Below are positions 2,096 through 12,669 of a stretch of DNA of 64,000 nucleotides, in pieces. The translations under genes and the position numbers were made by a program. Every line of letters starts with the position of its first letter. Position 1 is the stretch's first letter. Source of the DNA: Dehalococcoidia bacterium. GTDB lineage: Bacteria > Chloroflexota > Dehalococcoidia > DSTF01 > JACRBR01. The DNA lies in contig JAKFYB010000013.1 in the NCBI GenBank assembly GCA_021731085.1, positions 1-64,000 of the forward strand, read 5' to 3'. The notes beneath the pieces are model-generated. The model did no database searches. It saw only the letters and a list, made by a program, of their open reading frames with translations, and was not told the DNA's origin.

Positions 2096-2557
2096 ATGCC
2101 ACTCAAGAACAGGGAACTGAAGCCGGGGACTGTGCTGGTCGCACGGTACAAGAAGGAGGATCACACCTGCGTAGTGATGGAGACGGAGGACGGATTGCGC
2201 TACCGGGTCGCAGGAACGGACCACAAGAGCCCGTCCTCCGCGGCGAAAGCGGTCATGGGCGGGATCGCCGCGAACGGTTGGCGGTTCTGGAGCTTGCAGG
2301 GCGAGCTCAAGCCAGCGCCCGCGCAGAAGACCAAAAGGTCCACCACAATGAAGCCACCGGCCAAGAGCGTGACGAAACAGGTTGCAAAGGGTAAGGCGCC
2401 CGCGAAGGCGCGCAAGAACGCAACGAAGAAGAGCACGCCGAAGAAGAAAGTAGCGAAGATGGAAAGTGCAGGTGCGTTCGGTTGCGGCGCCTGCGGCCAG
2501 GAGTTCCGGACGATGAAGGCGGCGACGGAACATGCGCTGACGCACACGGCGAACTGA
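2096..2557 (+). CDS. RAMA-like domain protein with Lys/Ala-rich linker and C2H2 zinc finger
   Basis: The 153-residue protein has three parts. Residues about 5-68 (LKPGTVLVARYKKEDHTCVV through GWRFWSLQG) resemble RAMA/DUF2924 domains, thought to recognise modified DNA in restriction-linked proteins. Residues 72-121 are a Lys/Ala/Pro-rich, histone-H1-like basic tail. Residues 130-150 form a perfect C2H2 finger, C-x2-C-x12-H-x3-H (Cys130, Cys133, His146, His150). The start at 2096 is chosen for AAAAGGAGAT five bases upstream; the longer frame from 2036 lacks such a site. The likely role is DNA binding, possibly sensing modified DNA. The RAMA assignment is by sequence pattern only. Confidence 0.7.
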   Translation: MPLKNRELKPGTVLVARYKKEDHTCVVMETEDGLRYRVAGTDHKSPSSAAKAVMGGIAANGWRFWSLQGELKPAPAQKTKRSTTMKPPAKSVTKQVAKGKAPAKARKNATKKSTPKKKVAKMESAGAFGCGACGQEFRTMKAATEHALTHTAN

Positions 2558-2958: not shown

Positions 2959-4308
2959 TCACTGTTCGACGCGATCATCGGACAGATGTGCGAACCGCGA
3001 TCCGGCCAACATTGCTCGGTGAACCTCGGTCGTGCGATCTGCGCAAACACAGCCGTCGCGCAATGGTATGCGAGAATGCACGAACCGGAATTGTCCCTCG
3101 AACGTGTTCAAGGTGACCCGATTTGGACTTGTGGGTTCTCTTCCCGATGAGAGTTTGTGAGCCTCCGCTGCGGTCATGAGTCCCGCAGCGAACGACAGGA
3201 ACGGTAACGCGGCATCGATTTGCTCTCCCGAATCATTGACAGCTGAATCAGTGGCACAGGTATCGGGTCGGGCGGGCGCAACCGGTGGAAACAGGCAGCA
3301 CGAGCACGCGTCCAAGGTAGGAATGTGCCGTATCAGCGATACCTGCCACTGTTTGCCTGTCGTAGCATAGAGCTGAAGCGGCGGGAGCGCCGATTCGATG
3401 CGATAGCGAATGTCGTATTCGTTCGCCGCTGCAAACAACAGATCAGGAATACCATTCTGACGCTGCTCCAAGAGTGCGATTTGGTGAAGGTAAGCCGGAT
3501 GCGCCGTCACGCTGCGAACCCCCGAACGCGTTAGGTAGTTTCGCAAGGCTTCGGCCTTATTGGACCCGCAATCGGTGTCCCTAAAGGTGGGCGACCGGTC
3601 GAGGTTGTGAGTCTTAACGACATCGCCGTCCACCAGTGTCCATTGTGGACGCCATCCGGCGAACGTCAGGAAGTATGCGATCGCGGATCCAACCGAACCG
3701 CAACCAATCAGCCAAGCCTGCAGGGACTCCATTTGCGCTGGAACGAACCTTGCGGCGTGTTCCGTTGCTGTCCAGTCGTACGCGTTGAAGCTCTGTGACC
3801 CGGATGCATCATGCCCTTCACGTGCGAAAGCGTGTGCGCCAGCAAGAACGGCAGCTAGAGCGGCACCAAATGGGTTTCCATCCTCGGCGTCTGCGAACGA
3901 CGGCGAGCCTGAGCCGAAGTGCGCGTTCCAGCCCGCTCCATAGACGACGTTGCTGGCGGGACCACGGCCGAACGAGAAAACCAGCGCGTCCGCCGGCACC
4001 GCGTCGACAGCGCGGACATTGGAGTACGGATCAATAGTCGCCATTTCCGCTACGGCCTCATCGATGACATCTCCGCTCCCACGTCGAGGACCCACACGTA
4101 AGGAAGTTGCCGGGCCACTCACGGTTACGGCAGGCGTCATTCGAACCAGTAGATTCGTGAGGACGAGAAACGCAACCTGTCCTGCATAGGTCTCGCCATA
4201 GTCAGACGCGAGGGCAACGTGAATTGGGCGGGTCGGATCGAGCAAGCGTCCCTCGTATCGAAGCGATCGGCTGTTTCGTTCTGCGTACCAGTGCTCGACG
4301 TCCTTCAA
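2959..4308 (-). CDS. ThiF/E1-like ubiquitin-activating enzyme
   Basis: A 449-residue protein whose C-terminal two thirds is an E1/ThiF adenylation domain: Rossmann glycine loop LIGCGSVGS (near 198), acidic loop LVDGDVVKTHNLDRS with the conserved N-x-x-R, and GSNKAEAL with the ATP-contacting Lys. A Cys cluster (CSCC near 365) may bind zinc or carry the thioester. The N-terminal 170 residues are a separate domain I cannot name. It would adenylate the C-terminus of the Ubl encoded upstream and pass it to the E2. The TTG start overlaps the stop of the JAMM gene (TTGA), implying coupled translation. It is the last gene of the Ubl-E2-JAMM-E1 operon. Confidence 0.9.
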   Translation of the reverse strand: MKDVEHWYAERNSRSLRYEGRLLDPTRPIHVALASDYGETYAGQVAFLVLTNLLVRMTPAVTVSGPATSLRVGPRRGSGDVIDEAVAEMATIDPYSNVRAVDAVPADALVFSFGRGPASNVVYGAGWNAHFGSGSPSFADAEDGNPFGAALAAVLAGAHAFAREGHDASGSQSFNAYDWTATEHAARFVPAQMESLQAWLIGCGSVGSAIAYFLTFAGWRPQWTLVDGDVVKTHNLDRSPTFRDTDCGSNKAEALRNYLTRSGVRSVTAHPAYLHQIALLEQRQNGIPDLLFAAANEYDIRYRIESALPPLQLYATTGKQWQVSLIRHIPTLDACSCCLFPPVAPARPDTCATDSAVNDSGEQIDAALPFLSFAAGLMTAAEAHKLSSGREPTSPNRVTLNTFEGQFRFVHSRIPLRDGCVCADRTTEVHRAMLAGSRFAHLSDDRVEQ

Positions 4309-4799
4309 GAGCAGTCACTCACTTCGACGATGTCTGAAGTCTTAATTCTCACGTACTCATGCGGCCCGACGCACATCAGAATCTCGGCGCCACCCCATTT
4401 CGGAAACTCGCGGCCGTACTTCGGCAGTACGATAGAGACATATCCCGGATAGCGGATCCGCATCCCATCGAAATCCCCGCCACTATGGAAGGCCTGCATC
4501 GGGTGCGTATGAACCTGGCCCACAATCGCGAGTCCCAAATCGGCCGCACGACGCACGATGGCCGCCATGGAGACCACAGTCACGTCGAAGCTTCCTGCCG
4601 TCGTTGTCGCGTGGGGCGTGATCGCGGAGACGGCAATCGTGCTGGAGGAGTCGGACATACCCAACAGGTAGACGATGCCTTCGTGAGACTGCTGGCGCGG
4701 ATCTGTGATCGACGTCCGAATGCCAGCAGTGCATTGGCGCGCGATGGCCAGTCTTTGTGTATCCGATGACCTTACGCTCGGCCGTTTCCATGTGTTCAT
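4305..4799 (-). CDS. JAB/JAMM-family deubiquitinase-like metalloprotease
   Basis: The 164-residue protein contains a full JAMM zinc site: Glu in HEGIVYLLG, then HTHPMQAFHSGGDFD, which fits H-x-H-P-x(5)-S-x2-D. In the family these residues hold zinc and cut isopeptide or C-terminal peptide bonds of ubiquitin-like proteins. The start at 4799 is chosen because its ATG overlaps the E2 stop codon (ATGA); the longer open frame to 5177 only runs across the E2 gene. It probably trims the Ubl tail (which ends GSGV) to expose glycine and/or removes Ubl from targets. Confidence 0.9.
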   Translation of the reverse strand: MNTWKRPSVRSSDTQRLAIARQCTAGIRTSITDPRQQSHEGIVYLLGMSDSSSTIAVSAITPHATTTAGSFDVTVVSMAAIVRRAADLGLAIVGQVHTHPMQAFHSGGDFDGMRIRYPGYVSIVLPKYGREFPKWGGAEILMCVGPHEYVRIKTSDIVEVSDCS

Positions 4800-5248
4800 C
4801 CGCGGCGCCCCGTGTAGCTGGCCTTCAGTTCGAAGGCCATTCTTAGCGCCATCGCGGCTAGCGTCTTCGTTGCTCCCGTCTGCGGGTTCGAGCGCCAGTC
4901 TCCGATCTGCCAGTCCCCATGCGGACCACGCGAATCGACCTGGCTGTAGGCCAAGCGGTTCCAAGGTGCGCAGATGACTCCCGAGGAGTGAAAGTAGCCG
5001 CCGCCAGCAGGGCTGTCCGGTGGCTGGTCCAGTGCCCCAGATTCGGGGTTGAGGTAGTGCCACGCCGGAGGCTGGCCGGGATACGCATCGCAGTCCACAA
5101 GGAAGTGCACCAGAGTGGCGTCCTTGGCCGGAAGGGCCAGAGTGAACGTCGTCTCGGATTTGATCTGCACAATCCATCCGCGCTCGCAGCCATTCTGCTG
5201 GACTGCTACCAGCTCTTCCGCAACCGTGAGGCCAGCGGCGGTCGTCAT
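4796..5248 (-). CDS. E2/UBC-like ubiquitin-conjugating enzyme
   Basis: A 150-residue protein with a bacterial E2-like core: HYLNPESG, then FHSSGVICAPWNRLAY, which lines up with the canonical FHPN...G-x-I-C segment and supplies the catalytic Cys (about residue 96). A C-terminal helix TGATKTLAAMALRMAFEL follows. It should accept the Ubl from the E1 as a thioester. The start at 5248 is chosen because that ATG lies one base after the Ubl stop and has CCGGAG upstream; a frame starting at 5275 would overlap the Ubl gene. No E3 is seen nearby. Confidence 0.88.
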   Translation of the reverse strand: MTTAAGLTVAEELVAVQQNGCERGWIVQIKSETTFTLALPAKDATLVHFLVDCDAYPGQPPAWHYLNPESGALDQPPDSPAGGGYFHSSGVICAPWNRLAYSQVDSRGPHGDWQIGDWRSNPQTGATKTLAAMALRMAFELKASYTGRRG

Positions 5249-5249
5249 C

Positions 5250-5501
5250 TCAGACTCCGGAACCTGTGGCGACAAGCTCGAGCTTGTCGCCGTCCTTTAG
5301 GCCGAAGGAGACGAGCGGTCGGGTCACAGGCTGAAGTACCGTTCCGTCTTGCACGAGATCGAACTGCTCGCCCGGCGTCAGCCCCATCTTCTCGATGGCG
5401 AATGCGATGACTTCCTCCACCTTGGTGTTCTTATCGAACGTCTCGGTGAAGGCGCCCCTGGGTGTCGCAATGTTGAGGGTGATGTCCTGGTCGGATGGCA
5501 T
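5250..5501 (-). CDS. Ubiquitin-like beta-grasp modifier protein
   Basis: An 83-residue single-domain protein with the beta-grasp pattern: two N-terminal strands (ITLNIATP, FTETFD), the helix KVEEVIAFAIEKMG, further strands and the end DGDKLELVATGSGV. The C-terminal Gly-Ser-Gly-Val tail follows the last strand as in ubiquitin-like modifiers and would leave a terminal Gly if Val is trimmed, presumably by the JAMM protease. AGGAGG lies just before the ATG. It is the first gene of the four-gene conjugation operon, whose order (Ubl, E2, DUB, E1) matches that of published bacterial Bil-type antiviral operons. Confidence 0.85.
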   Translation of the reverse strand: MPSDQDITLNIATPRGAFTETFDKNTKVEEVIAFAIEKMGLTPGEQFDLVQDGTVLQPVTRPLVSFGLKDGDKLELVATGSGV

Positions 5502-5637
5502 TGTGCTCCTCCTGTTTCTGAACTGATCTTCTGTCTCTCACAGTAAACGTGATCGCCGTCAGGCGTGTCAAGCCAGACTACGGCGTATTTGACCAGAAAC
5601 AGCCCTGGCCGTTAGTGTTCCTGCTGGAGGCACCCCC
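5502..5637. promoter_or_regulatory. Divergent promoter region with 9-bp inverted repeat
   Basis: This 136-base region separates the leftward conjugation operon from the rightward XRE gene, so it must hold both promoters. CTGTTTCTG (5512-5520) and CAGAAACAG (5594-5602) are exact reverse complements and sit near the two ends. A regulator such as the XRE protein binding both could close or loop the region. I see no strong -35/-10 pair. Confidence 0.45.
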
Positions 5638-6033
5638 ATGGCCGATGCCGTACGAGCCGAGGAGCTGGCCCAACTCCTCAGGACGAAGCGCAGGGGCATG
5701 ACGATTCGACAGGCGGCCGAGAAAGCCGGCGTCAGTCCAGCAACGATGTGGCGAGCTGAAAAGGGCGAAGCCATAAGGGATGTCGATGTCATCGGTCGGC
5801 TTTGCGACTGGCTAGGGGTACCACCATCGCGTGTGCTCGTTAGCGTGAGGACGGTAAGCGCGATGCACGGTGATGAGATTGAGCACGGCGTGAAGGAGTC
5901 GACCGCCGACATGATCGAAGCTCATCTTCGCGCCGACAAGAACCTGGCACCTGGAACGGCGGACGCACTTTCCAATGCGTTCCGCACGCTGTACGAAGCG
6001 TATCCGAAGAAGAACAACCGTGACAAAAAGTGA
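5638..6033 (+). CDS. XRE-family helix-turn-helix regulator
   Basis: A 131-residue protein with a lambda-repressor-type HTH at about residues 8-65: LAQLLRTKRRGMTIRQAAEKAGVSPATMWRAEKG is laid out as expected, with the recognition helix at SPATMWRAEKG. The C-terminal half is helical and unassigned. GCTGGAGG lies upstream of the ATG. It is divergent to the Ubl operon and overlaps the next gene by 14 bases. It probably represses the divergent promoter region and hence the conjugation operon, perhaps relieved by the M78-like protein encoded next, as in ImmA/ImmR pairs. Confidence 0.8.
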   Translation: MADAVRAEELAQLLRTKRRGMTIRQAAEKAGVSPATMWRAEKGEAIRDVDVIGRLCDWLGVPPSRVLVSVRTVSAMHGDEIEHGVKESTADMIEAHLRADKNLAPGTADALSNAFRTLYEAYPKKNNRDKK

Positions 6034-6574
6034 TGGCTTCACGCGCTGGCTAGAGGGGAACGCGCAGGGAATGCGTCAGCTTGTGGGCCTAGGCCCGTCT
6101 GAGCGCCTCGTGCCGCGGGAGTTCGCTGAAGCGCTTTACTACACGATCGTGTTTCCGGCTGATATCGAAGGTCTCTCCCCAGGGGATCTCGTTCAGCTCA
6201 CGCAGGTTGACTCCCGCGGCTGGTCCGGATCGAGCGCCATTCTTCCAAATGGGCAACCTGTCGTGCTGCTTAATCCGACAGATTCCGTGACAAGAAATAA
6301 CATCACGATCATGGAGGAGCTGGCGCACGATTACTTGGGCCACCGGCCGTCCCTGTCATCTGCCGGCACCGCAAACGTGCGTCAGAGAGACTTTAGCAAG
6401 TCGAACGAGAAGCAAGCCTATGCGCTCGGAGCCGCCGCAGTTCTGCCCTATCGCCGCCTAGAAAACCTCGTGCAGCGGCGGATGCAAGTGAGCGAGATAG
6501 CGGATGTAGAAGAACTCAGCCGGAGCGTTGTGACCTATCGACTGAATGTTTCGGGCCTGGGGCGAGCTGCTTGA
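6020..6574 (+). CDS. ImmA/IrrE (M78)-like protein with altered zinc motif
   Basis: About 184 residues from a GTG at 6020 (MTKSDGFTRWLEG), which overlaps the end of the XRE gene; the in-frame extension to 5975 lies entirely inside that gene. The core NNITIMEELAHDYLGHRPS sits where M78 peptidases carry HExxH, but the first His is Glu (EELAH), followed by a further GH. C-terminal helices with YALGAAAVLPY match the family layout. It may be a variant-site peptidase or a non-catalytic sensor acting on the XRE repressor. I believe EExxH variants exist in M78 but cannot confirm this here. Confidence 0.7.
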   Translation: MTKSDGFTRWLEGNAQGMRQLVGLGPSERLVPREFAEALYYTIVFPADIEGLSPGDLVQLTQVDSRGWSGSSAILPNGQPVVLLNPTDSVTRNNITIMEELAHDYLGHRPSLSSAGTANVRQRDFSKSNEKQAYALGAAAVLPYRRLENLVQRRMQVSEIADVEELSRSVVTYRLNVSGLGRAA

Positions 6575-6670: not shown

Positions 6671-6696
6671 TCGCACAACCTTTATTGTGCGACACT
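6671..6696 (-). repeat. 26-bp palindromic repeat, copy 2 (inverted)
   Basis: This is the reverse-oriented copy of the element at 1324-1349, with the same arms and the same 6-base centre (CCTTTA on this strand); 25 of 26 positions agree. It covers the stop codon of the hydrolase gene at 6682. Together the two copies bracket the block holding the zinc-finger gene, the Ubl operon and its XRE/M78 pair. Confidence 0.6.
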
Positions 6697-8100: not shown

Positions 8101-11100
8101 TCAATAGAGAGGGCCTGGCGTTAGACAAGGGGTATACCCAGCGCGTTTACAGAGTGCTCTCTTCGCTTGTTCTTGGAGTTTCGCGATAGCAAGGTTGATC
8201 AGTCGGCCTAGGTCTAGACCAGAATTACCGTGGTACGTAGGTCCGCATGGCTGCACGCTATTGTATGAGCAATCGAGTGGATGTTGGGCGCAACGCTGCG
8301 ACCGATTGGGCATGTACACACTGCTTTCACAACGATCAGGACCTCCGCATGTCTCGTCCCACTTCCAGTAGCCCGGGCGAGGCGGGTAGCATACGCTAGT
8401 CGCCGTTGGCGTCGGCGTGGGTGTGTTAGTTGCGGTGGGTACGGGCGTATTCATGCCGCCCTCAAGCGCGTCGTGTCCCGACGGATCTATGAGATTTGTT
8501 GGGTTGTTGTAAACGTAACTATAGAAGTTGCCGACATTAAGCGTGTCGCGACTAAGGAAGCGGCCCAGAGCCGGATCATAGTGGCGAGCCCGCAAGTACG
8601 TAAGTCCGCGGTTCGCGTTGTGATCCGCTTGCTCGCCCGCAAACTCGAACTGGTTAGGCACGCTGCCGGTGCTGGCACGGATGGCACCCCACACGTCGTA
8701 GGTGTAGGTGTTGGCGATGTCACCATCCGACTCAGCGATGACTCTAGTGCTGCCAAGACCGTCGGCGAGGTAGAAGCTGTCGCCGCTGGCGTTGGTCTCA
8801 GCGATTAGCCCGATTCCGTAGAGATACGTCGTCGTTGACGGCGAGCCTGTGCTTGGCGTACGAACGTCCTGAAGTACCACGGGCAGCCCAGCGCCCTGAT
8901 CCCAGACATAGTCGTTGTCGACATAGGTCGGTGATGCAGGGAACGTTCGCTGCCGCGTCCGGAGCCCGTCGCCGTTGTACCAATGCCTAGCGTTCCCGGT
9001 GTTAGCACCCGTGTTCTTACAGGACCAACCAAGCGTCTGATCCGCTGCCAGAATGCCTGCATCGGCGTTGTTTATGGTCAGATCATGATTTAGGTCGACC
9101 AGCAGGTCGTAATCGTTTGTGCCCTCCGCTTTGTTATTGCGCGCTGCGCGAATTCCCGAGTCAGCTGGGTTCACGGTGGCGTCCGCGTTCAGATCGCCGC
9201 GGCACGGGCCGGTGCGAAAGAGCTGATTGTCCAGGTCCCAGAGAAACGTATTACCGTTCGGCGTAGCGCCGGTGTCAATTTTCTGAAGGTTACCGTCAGC
9301 ATCATGCGTGTTGCCCGTTCCGCCAATAGCGGAGAGTTGGTCAACCGCGTCGTATGTGTACGACGTAGATGGACTGGATACTGACAACCGATTTCCAACC
9401 TTGTCGTAGGTGTACGTGATGGCTGATGCGCTTGGATACGTGGCGCTCGTCAGCCGTTCCAATTCGTCGTAGGCAAAGGTGCTCACACCTTCACTATCGG
9501 TCAGTTGTGTCCGATTCCCATTGGCGTCTAGGACATAGTCGAAAGCCGCAATGTCGGTTGGTCCAGTCGTATCCGTGTCGGTGATACCGACAAGGCGGTT
9601 TGCATCGTCGTAGTCGTACGTCGTTTCGAGGTCTGTCGAAGATGGTAGCGTCGTGAGGATGAGCCGACCTGCAGCGTCATAGTCATAGTCCGTCGTTCCT
9701 GCAAACCAGCTCGCGGTCACTTGCTCCAAACGGTTGAGTGCATCGTAGCTATAGCTCGCGACTTTACTGTCCGGATAGGTGATAGAAGTGCGATTGTTGG
9801 CGGCATCGTGGGTGTAGGAGACGGTGCGCGACGTACCATCAAATGTGGTTTGTACTGACGCGAGGCGGTTCAAATCGTCATACACGTAGGTCGTCGTGTC
9901 GTTCTCTGTTGTGTTCAAGCTGCAACTTGAGGTGTATCCAGTTTCGCAGGCGCCGCGCGTGTCGGTCATCGTTAGCCGGTTTCCGTTCGCATCGTACGTG
10001 TACGCGGTCGTGTAGTGCACATCCGGATGTGCGATGAGCTCCAATTGGTTGACCTCGTCGTACGTGTAATTAGTTTCACGGCCCGTCCCTTGGTGGAGTG
10101 GATCCGTGACACTATCAAGGTTGTCGTTCGCATCGTACGTGTATGTGGTCTTACGTGTGGACCCGGCTCCAGCAATTCGCGCCTGGATTACATTTGTAAG
10201 CCGGTTCTTTACGTCGTAGGTGTAGGCAACCGAAAGACAGCCGTCATCGACTACGCTGTCAGTGTCGTTGTCCACGCCATTGCCGGTTCCGGTCGTGTTG
10301 TCGCAATTGGAGCCAGATTCTGGCGAGCCGGAGGCAAGGCGATTGGCGTTGCGCATGCCAGTTTGATTGCCCACAACGTCATAAATGAAGTCAGTAATAG
10401 GCGGTCCGCCAGTAACATAGGCGTCGGTAGCTTGTGTGAGATTGTTCTGCTGGTCGTATTCAAAGATTGACGACGGGCAGCCATCGTCCACGGATGTGTC
10501 ACTGTCGTCATCGACGCCGTCGCCGGTGCCATCGGATCCGCAGTCGGCCCCCGACTCAGGCGTGCTATTCGCCGCCCGAGAGGGCTTAGTGACCGTCAGA
10601 ACCCGTCCGCCTAGGTCATAGGTGTAACCGGTCACGTTGCCTTCGGCGTCCTCGACAGTGAGTATGTTTCCGTATTCATCGTAGGTGAACAGAGTGTCAT
10701 TGCCGTTGGCGTCGGTGATGATGCAGAGCATGCTGCGGTCGGCCGGCGAGCCCCCACCTGAGCAGGAATCCCCAGATCCAGTTTCCCAGTCGAAGTCTGT
10801 GTCATTACTCAAGGCATCCGTGATCTGGATCAGGTTTCCGTCACCGTCGTAGTCATAGTCTGTTGAGTTACCGCGAGCGTCCGTCACGATGTCGACGTCA
10901 TTGAGCCCGGTATACGTGACAACCGTGCTGGGACACCCATCGTCAATGACCGTGTCGCTGTCATCGTCAACACCGTCTCCAGTACCTGGACCGCCACAAT
11001 CTCCGCCCGTCTCCGGTGCGCTCACGGGTTGCCGCAGGGCATTGAAAACTTCTTCGACATTGCCATCTGCGTCGTAGGTATAGCTAGTCACGTTGGCGAG

Positions 11101-12669
11101 CGGGTCGGTAACGCTTTCGAGATTATTGTCAGCGTCGTAAGTGTAGGCCGTGTCGATGTTGACGCTGTTGGCAACCCGGTGGATCAGGGTGGGTCGGAAG
11201 GAGGTGTCGAACTCGTGCAACTCCTCGTTGCCGCGAGGGTCGCGCATGATGGTTTGACCTGCTGATGGGCTCGGTGCTCCGGAAGTACAGCCGGTGGCGC
11301 TGTTTGCTGGGCCAGTCCCGTAGTACATACATGTGACGCCGCCCGCAGCGTCCGTCTGCTTCCTCACGCGGTCTGCGGTGTCGTACTCGTTCGTCACTTG
11401 CAGATTCGTGAGTCCATTGGTAACCGTCGCGAGAAGGTGGCTCGTACTTGCATAGCCATAGGTTGTCGTGGCCGTCGAGGTGGTTACTGTTCGGTAGGTG
11501 ACAGTCTGGAGGTCGCCGTTGCCGTCATAGGCAAAGGTGAAGACGCGGTTGTCAGGCGATAGCCCGTCGCTGACCGTTGTGATGTTCTTGGTTGTGGAAT
11601 TGACCGTGAACTGTAGGACACGGCCACCTGGGTCCGTCACGTAGTCGATGCCGTCACTGTCGTACGTGATAGTCGTTGTGTTGCCATTGCGGTCGACCTG
11701 GCTGGTCAGTCGCCCGCCTGAGTCGAAATTCAACTCAGTTTGGTCTGTCATCGTGAGTGTGAAGTCACCACCGCCATTCTGGACGAGGGTGTCGTACACG
11801 CCGTCTGGAGCGGTAAAGGTTCCTCCACTCTTCGCGAAGAACGGTCCGGCGCCATTCGGATAGTTCACCGTCGCGGACCCATCGGTTAGCAATGTGAGTG
11901 AGGTGCTGTAATTGTGGGTCCAACCATAGCCAAGGTCGGTCTTCAAAGTGTTGCGGCCGGAATAGTAGTGACGCGTGAACTCGAGAGGCACGCCACGACC
12001 GGGAATCGCGATGTCGGTGTGTTCGTACGTGAGCGCTCCGGACGTGAACGAGATCGGATCTTTCGTCCAGTCGCCATGCAGGAAGTCGTATAGCGAGGAC
12101 ATGGTCCCGCCGTTCATGACTCTTGTAACGCGGGAGCTGAGCGCCACGAACCTTACCTTGACGACCTGACCCGCGTACGTCGATACATCGCACGACATGG
12201 AGAACGCTCTATTTGCGGGGATGGTGTAGCCGACTCCAGAAAGCGCTACGGTCGTTGAGAAGCTGGGGTCGGTCAACAGTTGAACTTGGACGTGGCCCTG
12301 CTGGCTTGCACTACTTGCGAACGCGAAGTTGAGTCGCGACCCGTCCTGCGGGATCATGAATGCATCAGACGTAAGAGAGTTCACAGTAACGGCATTCGCA
12401 GCGATACTTGTCGTAATCGCCGCGCCACCCTTACAGGTCCCTGCTCCGGCATCACCAAGCGATGGATCACTAGTCATGCCGGAAGCTGACACCGTGTTCC
12501 ACGTGCCGGATGTGGTCCAGTGGGTAAGGCCAGCGCTGAAGTTGCTGTTCAACGGCTGGCGGGAAAGTGCGCCAGAGGGTGCCGCCTCTACGGAAGGGGG
12601 TTGCGATGGTAATACGACCGGAAGAAACGAAATAAGCGAGGCGCAACAAGCTAGAAGCAGGTATTTCAC
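8101..12669 (-). CDS. Large secreted YD/RHS-repeat protein with dockerin-like insert
   Basis: A 1,522-residue protein. A GTG start with GGAGGG upstream is followed by a Sec signal peptide, a jelly-roll-like N-terminal region, a DUF6531-type motif (FTSGALTYEHTDIAIPGRG), and more than 20 YD repeats (Y-x-Y-D-x-x-G-N-x). Three Asp/Cys-rich inserts of the type GVDDDSDTVIDDGCP interrupt the repeats (near 10,920-11,020, 10,480-10,570 and 10,240-10,330). A dockerin-like double calcium loop (DLNADATVNPADSGI, DLNHDLTINNADAGI) lies at about 9,010-9,210. The RHS core end RARHYDPALGRFLSRDTLN is followed by DPSGHD and a unique tail with PTPTPTAT and nine Cys. Such shells usually enclose a C-terminal toxin; no toxin family is recognised here and no immunity gene is obvious. 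Confidence 0.9.
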   Translation of the reverse strand: MKYLLLACCASLISFLPVVLPSQPPSVEAAPSGALSRQPLNSNFSAGLTHWTTSGTWNTVSASGMTSDPSLGDAGAGTCKGGAAITTSIAANAVTVNSLTSDAFMIPQDGSRLNFAFASSASQQGHVQVQLLTDPSFSTTVALSGVGYTIPANRAFSMSCDVSTYAGQVVKVRFVALSSRVTRVMNGGTMSSLYDFLHGDWTKDPISFTSGALTYEHTDIAIPGRGVPLEFTRHYYSGRNTLKTDLGYGWTHNYSTSLTLLTDGSATVNYPNGAGPFFAKSGGTFTAPDGVYDTLVQNGGGDFTLTMTDQTELNFDSGGRLTSQVDRNGNTTTITYDSDGIDYVTDPGGRVLQFTVNSTTKNITTVSDGLSPDNRVFTFAYDGNGDLQTVTYRTVTTSTATTTYGYASTSHLLATVTNGLTNLQVTNEYDTADRVRKQTDAAGGVTCMYYGTGPANSATGCTSGAPSPSAGQTIMRDPRGNEELHEFDTSFRPTLIHRVANSVNIDTAYTYDADNNLESVTDPLANVTSYTYDADGNVEEVFNALRQPVSAPETGGDCGGPGTGDGVDDDSDTVIDDGCPSTVVTYTGLNDVDIVTDARGNSTDYDYDGDGNLIQITDALSNDTDFDWETGSGDSCSGGGSPADRSMLCIITDANGNDTLFTYDEYGNILTVEDAEGNVTGYTYDLGGRVLTVTKPSRAANSTPESGADCGSDGTGDGVDDDSDTSVDDGCPSSIFEYDQQNNLTQATDAYVTGGPPITDFIYDVVGNQTGMRNANRLASGSPESGSNCDNTTGTGNGVDNDTDSVVDDGCLSVAYTYDVKNRLTNVIQARIAGAGSTRKTTYTYDANDNLDSVTDPLHQGTGRETNYTYDEVNQLELIAHPDVHYTTAYTYDANGNRLTMTDTRGACETGYTSSCSLNTTENDTTTYVYDDLNRLASVQTTFDGTSRTVSYTHDAANNRTSITYPDSKVASYSYDALNRLEQVTASWFAGTTDYDYDAAGRLILTTLPSSTDLETTYDYDDANRLVGITDTDTTGPTDIAAFDYVLDANGNRTQLTDSEGVSTFAYDELERLTSATYPSASAITYTYDKVGNRLSVSSPSTSYTYDAVDQLSAIGGTGNTHDADGNLQKIDTGATPNGNTFLWDLDNQLFRTGPCRGDLNADATVNPADSGIRAARNNKAEGTNDYDLLVDLNHDLTINNADAGILAADQTLGWSCKNTGANTGNARHWYNGDGLRTRQRTFPASPTYVDNDYVWDQGAGLPVVLQDVRTPSTGSPSTTTYLYGIGLIAETNASGDSFYLADGLGSTRVIAESDGDIANTYTYDVWGAIRASTGSVPNQFEFAGEQADHNANRGLTYLRARHYDPALGRFLSRDTLNVGNFYSYVYNNPTNLIDPSGHDALEGGMNTPVPTATNTPTPTPTATSVCYPPRPGYWKWDETCGGPDRCESSVYMPNRSQRCAQHPLDCSYNSVQPCGPTYHGNSGLDLGRLINLAIAKLQEQAKRALCKRAGYTPCLTPGPLY

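Follow-up and report, generated by a model that had tools for sequence, protein, structure and literature searches.

Gene sets for bacterial ubiquitin-like (Ubl), E2, JAB, and E1 proteins were grouped by Iyer et al. (2006) into types 6a–6e; type 6d includes a JAB-N domain and an additional helical protein, in type 6e the E2-like domain is inactive and the JAB is usually fused to the E1, and by description none of the types is made up of just one separate gene each for Ubl, E2, JAB, and E1 (PMC1779556). The closest described system is Bil (BilABCD, ISG15-like operons that act against phage), whose published cascade is reviewed, together with a later archaeal system from Caldiarchaeum, in PMC11354881; there BilC is reported to trim BilA, and BilB carries a CEHH motif (C, then E at +6, H at +8, and H at +13). 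The related bacterial ubiquitination-like operons called Bub often lie beside CapW or beside CapH plus CapP type regulators, and protection against phage has not been shown for them (PMC13373217). Type II CBASS uses similar E1, E2, and JAB chemistry in its Cap2 and Cap3 proteins.

Gene arrangement and relatives of the operon

The operon considered here lies in the window (the whole 64,000-nucleotide stretch of DNA that was analyzed) and is composed of four minus-strand genes, with two divergent regulatory genes adjoining it (Table 1). The Ubl and E2 genes are separated by a single base (5249), the E2 and JAMM genes overlap by 4 bases at an ATGA (4796–4799), and the JAMM and E1 genes overlap by 4 bases at a TTGA (4305–4308). 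The first-pass annotation had described this arrangement from the open reading frames as a complete operon in the Bil order Ubl, E2, DUB, E1, and had picked out the Ubl tail GSGV, the E2 motif GVICAPW, the JAMM motif HTHP...S-x2-D, and the E1 motif GCGSVGS; genes and motifs are all in place, and the same gene order was found in 22 further complete operons.

Table 1. Features of the conjugation operon and its regulators in the window
Feature	Position	Strand	Description	Basis
Ubl	5250..5501	-	83 aa, single beta-grasp domain, precursor tail ...ATGSG-V	ORF
E2-like (UBC fold) conjugating enzyme	4796..5248	-	150 aa, ATG at 5248, stop 4796	
JAMM metalloprotease/deubiquitinase	4305..4799	-	164 aa	
E1 activating enzyme	2959..4308	-	449 aa, TTG start at 4308	
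E1 domains	residues ~1-180; ~190-449 of 449 aa		inactive adenylation; active adenylation	
XRE-type HTH repressor, CapH-like	5638..6033	+	divergent from operon	Pfam HTH_31 7.7e-11; PADLOC capH 4e-5
M78 (ImmA/IrrE, CapP-like) protein	~6032..6574	+	translated open stretch, start approximate	Pfam Peptidase_M78 2.1e-11
Divergent intergenic region	5502..5637	.	136 bp, presumed operator/promoters	position between divergent genes

A tblastn search of plasmids with the E1 gave five records (Mesorhizobium huakuii, Halomarina, Natrinema, Haloferacaceae XH8, and Mycolicibacterium chubuense), of which the M. huakuii plasmid E1 matches the window E1 at 39% over 97%. A scan seeded with an E1 alignment located one locus in a viral-contig set and 22 in GTDB genomes; three of the latter are haloarchaeal records already present among the plasmid matches. 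When peptide patterns were drawn from the window E1 alone, scans of genome and viral contigs turned up no relative, an E2-seeded viral scan gave no confirmed match, and phage records gave no match. By profile searches of the open reading frames there are 23 complete operons including that of the window, and the order is Ubl-E2-JAMM-E1 wherever the contig spans the region; two loci (L023 and L027) run off their contigs, and a third (L013) has only the Ubl tail in frame. In the last of these (at ~3850–4010) the start of the Ubl gene seems to be missing or broken; its tail, ...LELVATGSGV, is intact, as are the genes for the E2, JAMM, and E1 proteins.

The relatives span bacterial phyla, haloarchaea, and one Thermoplasmata bin, and so place E2-containing conjugation operons in both of these archaeal groups; several are on plasmids, one of them conjugative. 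Occurrence is sparse, at one genome in 400 from the window's phylum and two in 297 from one actinobacterial class. The operon family is rare and has spread horizontally across bacteria and archaea. Six closely related pairs gave dN/dS values of ~0.08–0.42 across the four genes (one E1 pair was saturated), indicating purifying selection. The four-gene arrangement is not a chance one, since 22 more operons have the identical order, their genes mostly overlapping or a short gap apart, with invariant catalytic residues and with these dN/dS values. Genes near the relatives' operons, as listed without a background control, include a CBASS cyclase with a phospholipase effector, AbiE, IetA, and a dCTPase, as well as the mobility genes integrases, resolvase, relaxase, and transposases. 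The flanking hydrolase of the window has counterparts only 32–43% identical among the relatives.

The four conjugation proteins

The Ubl is a single-domain protein in all 23 operons aligned. Its Gly82 is invariant in the 23-member alignment. The next residue is Val in 21 of the 23, and two haloarchaea have A-S-E or A-G-R there instead; an invariant tail Gly followed by Val or by Ala-x-x is the pattern expected of a trimmed precursor. The Ubl profile matches ubiquilin and ubiquitin chains (E ~6.5e-6 to 1e-5 for single-domain matches), and in profile-profile comparison it reaches a probability of just 28% against BilA.

No PDB sequence matched the E2 profile, so the fold of this protein was judged by structure. 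Its AlphaFold model (pLDDT 96) has a helix, a four-strand meander, and a C-terminal helix, which is the UBC fold; the outcome that the first-pass annotation had named as refuting its reading, a predicted structure outside this fold, was thus not obtained. The best PDB match of the model is BilB (Z 13.1 over 130 residues, VIA-align), and the next matches are mostly eukaryotic E2s (Z 8.7–10.2); Foldseek also places a Bil E2 on top, at an E-value of only 0.009, and the profile-profile match to Bil E2s has a probability of 97.8%. Cys93 lies in FHxxGVIC-APWNR, with His110 and Trp113 downstream; Cys93, Arg98, His110, Trp113, and Trp118 are invariant in the 24-member alignment. The GxIC pattern and the fold match together put Cys93 at the putative catalytic place of the UBC fold.

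The JAMM protein has invariant Glu40, His97, His99, Ser106, and Asp109 (24-member alignment; H97-T-H99-P), and its profile is nearest to BilC (8tyx, 3.3e-17). It qualifies as a BilC-type DUB, and the PADLOC BilC model scores it at 2.3e-10, compared with ~1e-61 for true Bil.

The E1 has a ThiF match (1.7e-17), and its profile matches BilD at 8.7e-28 and BubCD at 1.3e-5. Its AlphaFold model (pLDDT 87; residues 345–362 around Cys351 are poorly predicted) superposes from residue 7 to residue 444 on BilD (8tyz_A; Z 39.5, 393 residues) and reaches Z ~26 with eukaryotic Uba1 and Uba6. Because the model aligns along BilD over this whole length, the N-terminal 170 residues, which the first-pass annotation had left unassigned, are the inactive adenylation domain known from BilD and the eukaryotic E1s, as the profile also indicates. 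Cys335, Cys338, Cys351, Cys420, Asp227, Asp229, Arg238, and Lys251 are invariant in the alignment; Cys335, Cys338, and Cys420 are putative zinc ligands, and Cys351, the putative catalytic residue, is kept in 35 of 35 E1s of the new clade and the Bil type taken together.

JAMM-trimmed sulfur carriers exist, and this precedent, together with a ThiF/MoeB-like CxxC and cysteine loop in the E1 that resembles the genome's own MoeB-like protein, raises a sulfur-carrier pathway as another reading, with the Ubl a ThiS/MoaD-like thiocarboxylate donor that the JAMM protein trims and the E1 only adenylates. It seems very improbable, given an E2 with an invariant catalytic-type Cys in every complete locus, an E1 whose inactive adenylation domain is characteristic of conjugating E1s, and an operon that includes no sulfurtransferase or biosynthetic gene.

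Relationship to Bil and other systems

The new clade shares with Bil the Ubl-E2-JAMM-E1 order, an E1 with an inactive and an active adenylation domain and a conserved Cys, a UBC-fold E2, and a JAMM protein nearest to BilC. However, in an E1 tree its 24 members (support 95/95) stand apart from 10 Bil-type E1s (100/99); the root of this tree rests on one distant MoeB-like outgroup, and CBASS E1s are absent from it because a PADLOC E1-E2 (Cap2) search of 58 alphaproteobacteria found none. The CxxC at 335/338 and Cys420 are present in 25 of 25 E1s of the new clade and in none of the 10 of Bil, and Arg238 of the NxxR motif, also present in 25 of 25, is T in all 10 Bil E1s.

The E2s differ as well. 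Where present, the Cys of Bil E2s is usually in [P/A]-C-D-R, whereas that of the new clade, in G-x-I-C-A-P-[WF]-N-R, precedes this position by three residues. In place of the CEHH spacing of BilB the window E2 has invariant C93, R98 (+5), H110 (+17), and W113, though the Bil set itself varies. In several of the Bil-type E2s of L036, L037, L042, L043, L047, and L048 the Cys of the CDR position is absent (as in YRPWDR, PLDR, AADR, and AWQR); an E2 that lacks the usual cysteine may therefore serve in some Bil operons.

The PADLOC models for BilA, B, C, and D score a true Bil operon at 1e-45, 1e-56, 8e-62, and 4e-164, respectively, and the window operon at nothing, 0.013, 2.3e-10, and 5.4e-14; across the clade BilA is matched in 0 of 23, BilB weakly in 14 of 24, and BilD in 18 of 23. 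With this clade, complete Ubl-E2-DUB-E1 operons have a second widespread lineage in addition to Bil, one largely missed by current defence models. A single-domain Ubl, which had been put forward as a possible mark of a subtype, does not serve as one by itself: locus L036, whose E1 groups with Bil, has at the BilA position a 105-aa protein that looks single-domain, which suggests that a two-domain BilA is not universal in Bil (BilA is ~150–175 aa in nine other Bil-type loci). Another Bil-like case, deep-branching, is a pair of operons in one small genome (L038 and L039 in G485) with an unusual extended protein at the Ubl/E2 position.

The window operon could simply be a divergent member of Bil, tagging phage structural proteins during assembly; its gene order is that of Bil loci, the best structural or profile matches of its E1, E2, and JAMM proteins are all Bil proteins, and the profile-profile match of its E2 to Bil is strong. 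This has a lesser but real chance of being right, and it fits poorly with the separate E1 clade, PADLOC scores far below those of true Bil, an E1 CxxC...C and NxxR that divide the two groups 25 of 25 to 0 of 10, and a Ubl profile that barely matches BilA. With an E1 outside the Bil clade, a Ubl of one beta-grasp domain with a GxG-V tail in place of the two domains of BilA, and an E2 without CEHH, the operon is a sister variant of Bil and not Bil proper; the operon lists of the primary Bil and Bub papers may already contain the new clade. The suggestion of a distinct subtype thus holds on the E1 clade, the E2 motif, and the E1 cysteines, and the novelty is that of a sister clade to Bil; it is not a new kind of system, since the Bil cascade was already published (PMC11354881).

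Bub belongs to a related bacterial ubiquitination-like family, but the window E1 profile is closer to BilD than to BubCD. Type II CBASS is similar in its E1 core, but its E1 and E2 are fused, adjoin a CD-NTase, and act on it, whereas the window operon has separate E1 and E2 genes, a Ubl, and no cyclase. The E1 and E2 active sites of the new clade are more canonical than those of Bil, which makes it a good system for studying minimal E3-less cascades and the relationship to eukaryotes. It is conceivable, though improbable, that the clade retains a state ancestral to eukaryotic-type conjugation and that Bil is a derived offshoot that lost features; the ancestral features would then be the single-domain modifier, the eukaryote-like E2 HxxGxIC, the E1 CxxC...C with canonical NxxR, and presence in both bacteria and archaea.

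Regulators, proposed function, and surroundings

Divergent XRE and M78 genes do adjoin the operon, as first annotated, where they were raised as a possible mark of a distinct subtype; an HTH repressor adjoining an M78 peptidase gene beside an immune operon is the known CapH/CapP (and PprI/DdrO) arrangement and no new component. In 16 of 23 loci the operon has a divergent M78 gene upstream, either by itself or in fusion with an HTH (one is a contig-edge fragment). The M78 protein of the window has EELAH (EExxH) where CapP-like peptidases have the catalytic HExxH, which is kept in 14 of 14 M78 proteins of the relatives; judging from this motif, CapP-like cleavage may fail at the window locus, and the switch may differ or be dead there. 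In two other loci sigma-70 family proteins lie between the M78 gene and the operon (L022:2918-3529 and L030:2814-3437), where elsewhere there is an HTH repressor. A pattern search of the divergent intergenic region (5502–5637) found no sigma-70 consensus promoter or terminator pattern.

From folds and active sites it is very likely that the operon encodes a Ubl conjugation cascade; the gene order and active sites are kept in 23 operons, the E2 and E1 models are nearest to BilB and BilD, and the JAMM profile is nearest to BilC. In such a cascade the JAMM protein would trim the C-terminal Val off the Ubl to expose ...GSG, and the E1 would adenylate the terminal Gly, take the Ubl onto Cys351, and hand it to Cys93 of the E2. 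The E2 would then attach it to target proteins, at lysines or at other nucleophiles, there being no dedicated E3 in the operon, and the JAMM protein could also take the Ubl back off; for Bil, such a course is reviewed in PMC11354881. The divergent XRE protein would repress the operon until its M78 partner lifts repression upon DNA damage or infection, the presumed trigger by analogy with CapH/CapP.

HTH plus M78 pairs are DNA-damage switches in CapH/CapP and PprI/DdrO (PMC13373217, PMC10904395), and the operon carries no phage-specific gene, so conjugation might serve a cellular response to DNA damage and not act against phage. Such a role is rather unlikely, as the rare and patchy distribution, the plasmid locations, and the defence-gene neighbors suggest defence cargo. 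Bub is not known to protect against phage (PMC13373217), so conjugation alone does not mean defence. Phage defence as the output is nevertheless somewhat favored by kinship, by plasmid locations, and by the defence and mobility genes nearby (neighbors listed without a background control). Overall, the operon is probably an inducible Ubl conjugation pathway, sister to Bil, with phage defence its most likely output.

A 26-nt inverted repeat (1324–1349 and 6671–6696, 96% complementary), present in exactly two copies in the whole genome, brackets a 5.37-kb segment in which a small gene lies together with the operon and its regulators. The core of both copies is a hairpin, CGCACAA-TAAAGG-TTGTGCG, that in its sequence resembles a mobile-element end or recombination site, and the right copy contains the stop codon of the 6682–8007 gene. 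The GC fraction of the bracketed segment is ~0.57–0.62, compared with 0.52–0.57 alongside. The product of the small gene (2096–2557, plus strand) combines a RAMA/DUF2924-like domain with a lysine-rich stretch and a C2H2-like zinc finger, and similar copies (78–83%) lie elsewhere in the genome on contigs C15, C20, and C43. Adjoining the segment, at 8101–12669 on the minus strand, is a gene for a 1522-aa RHS/YD-repeat-like protein.
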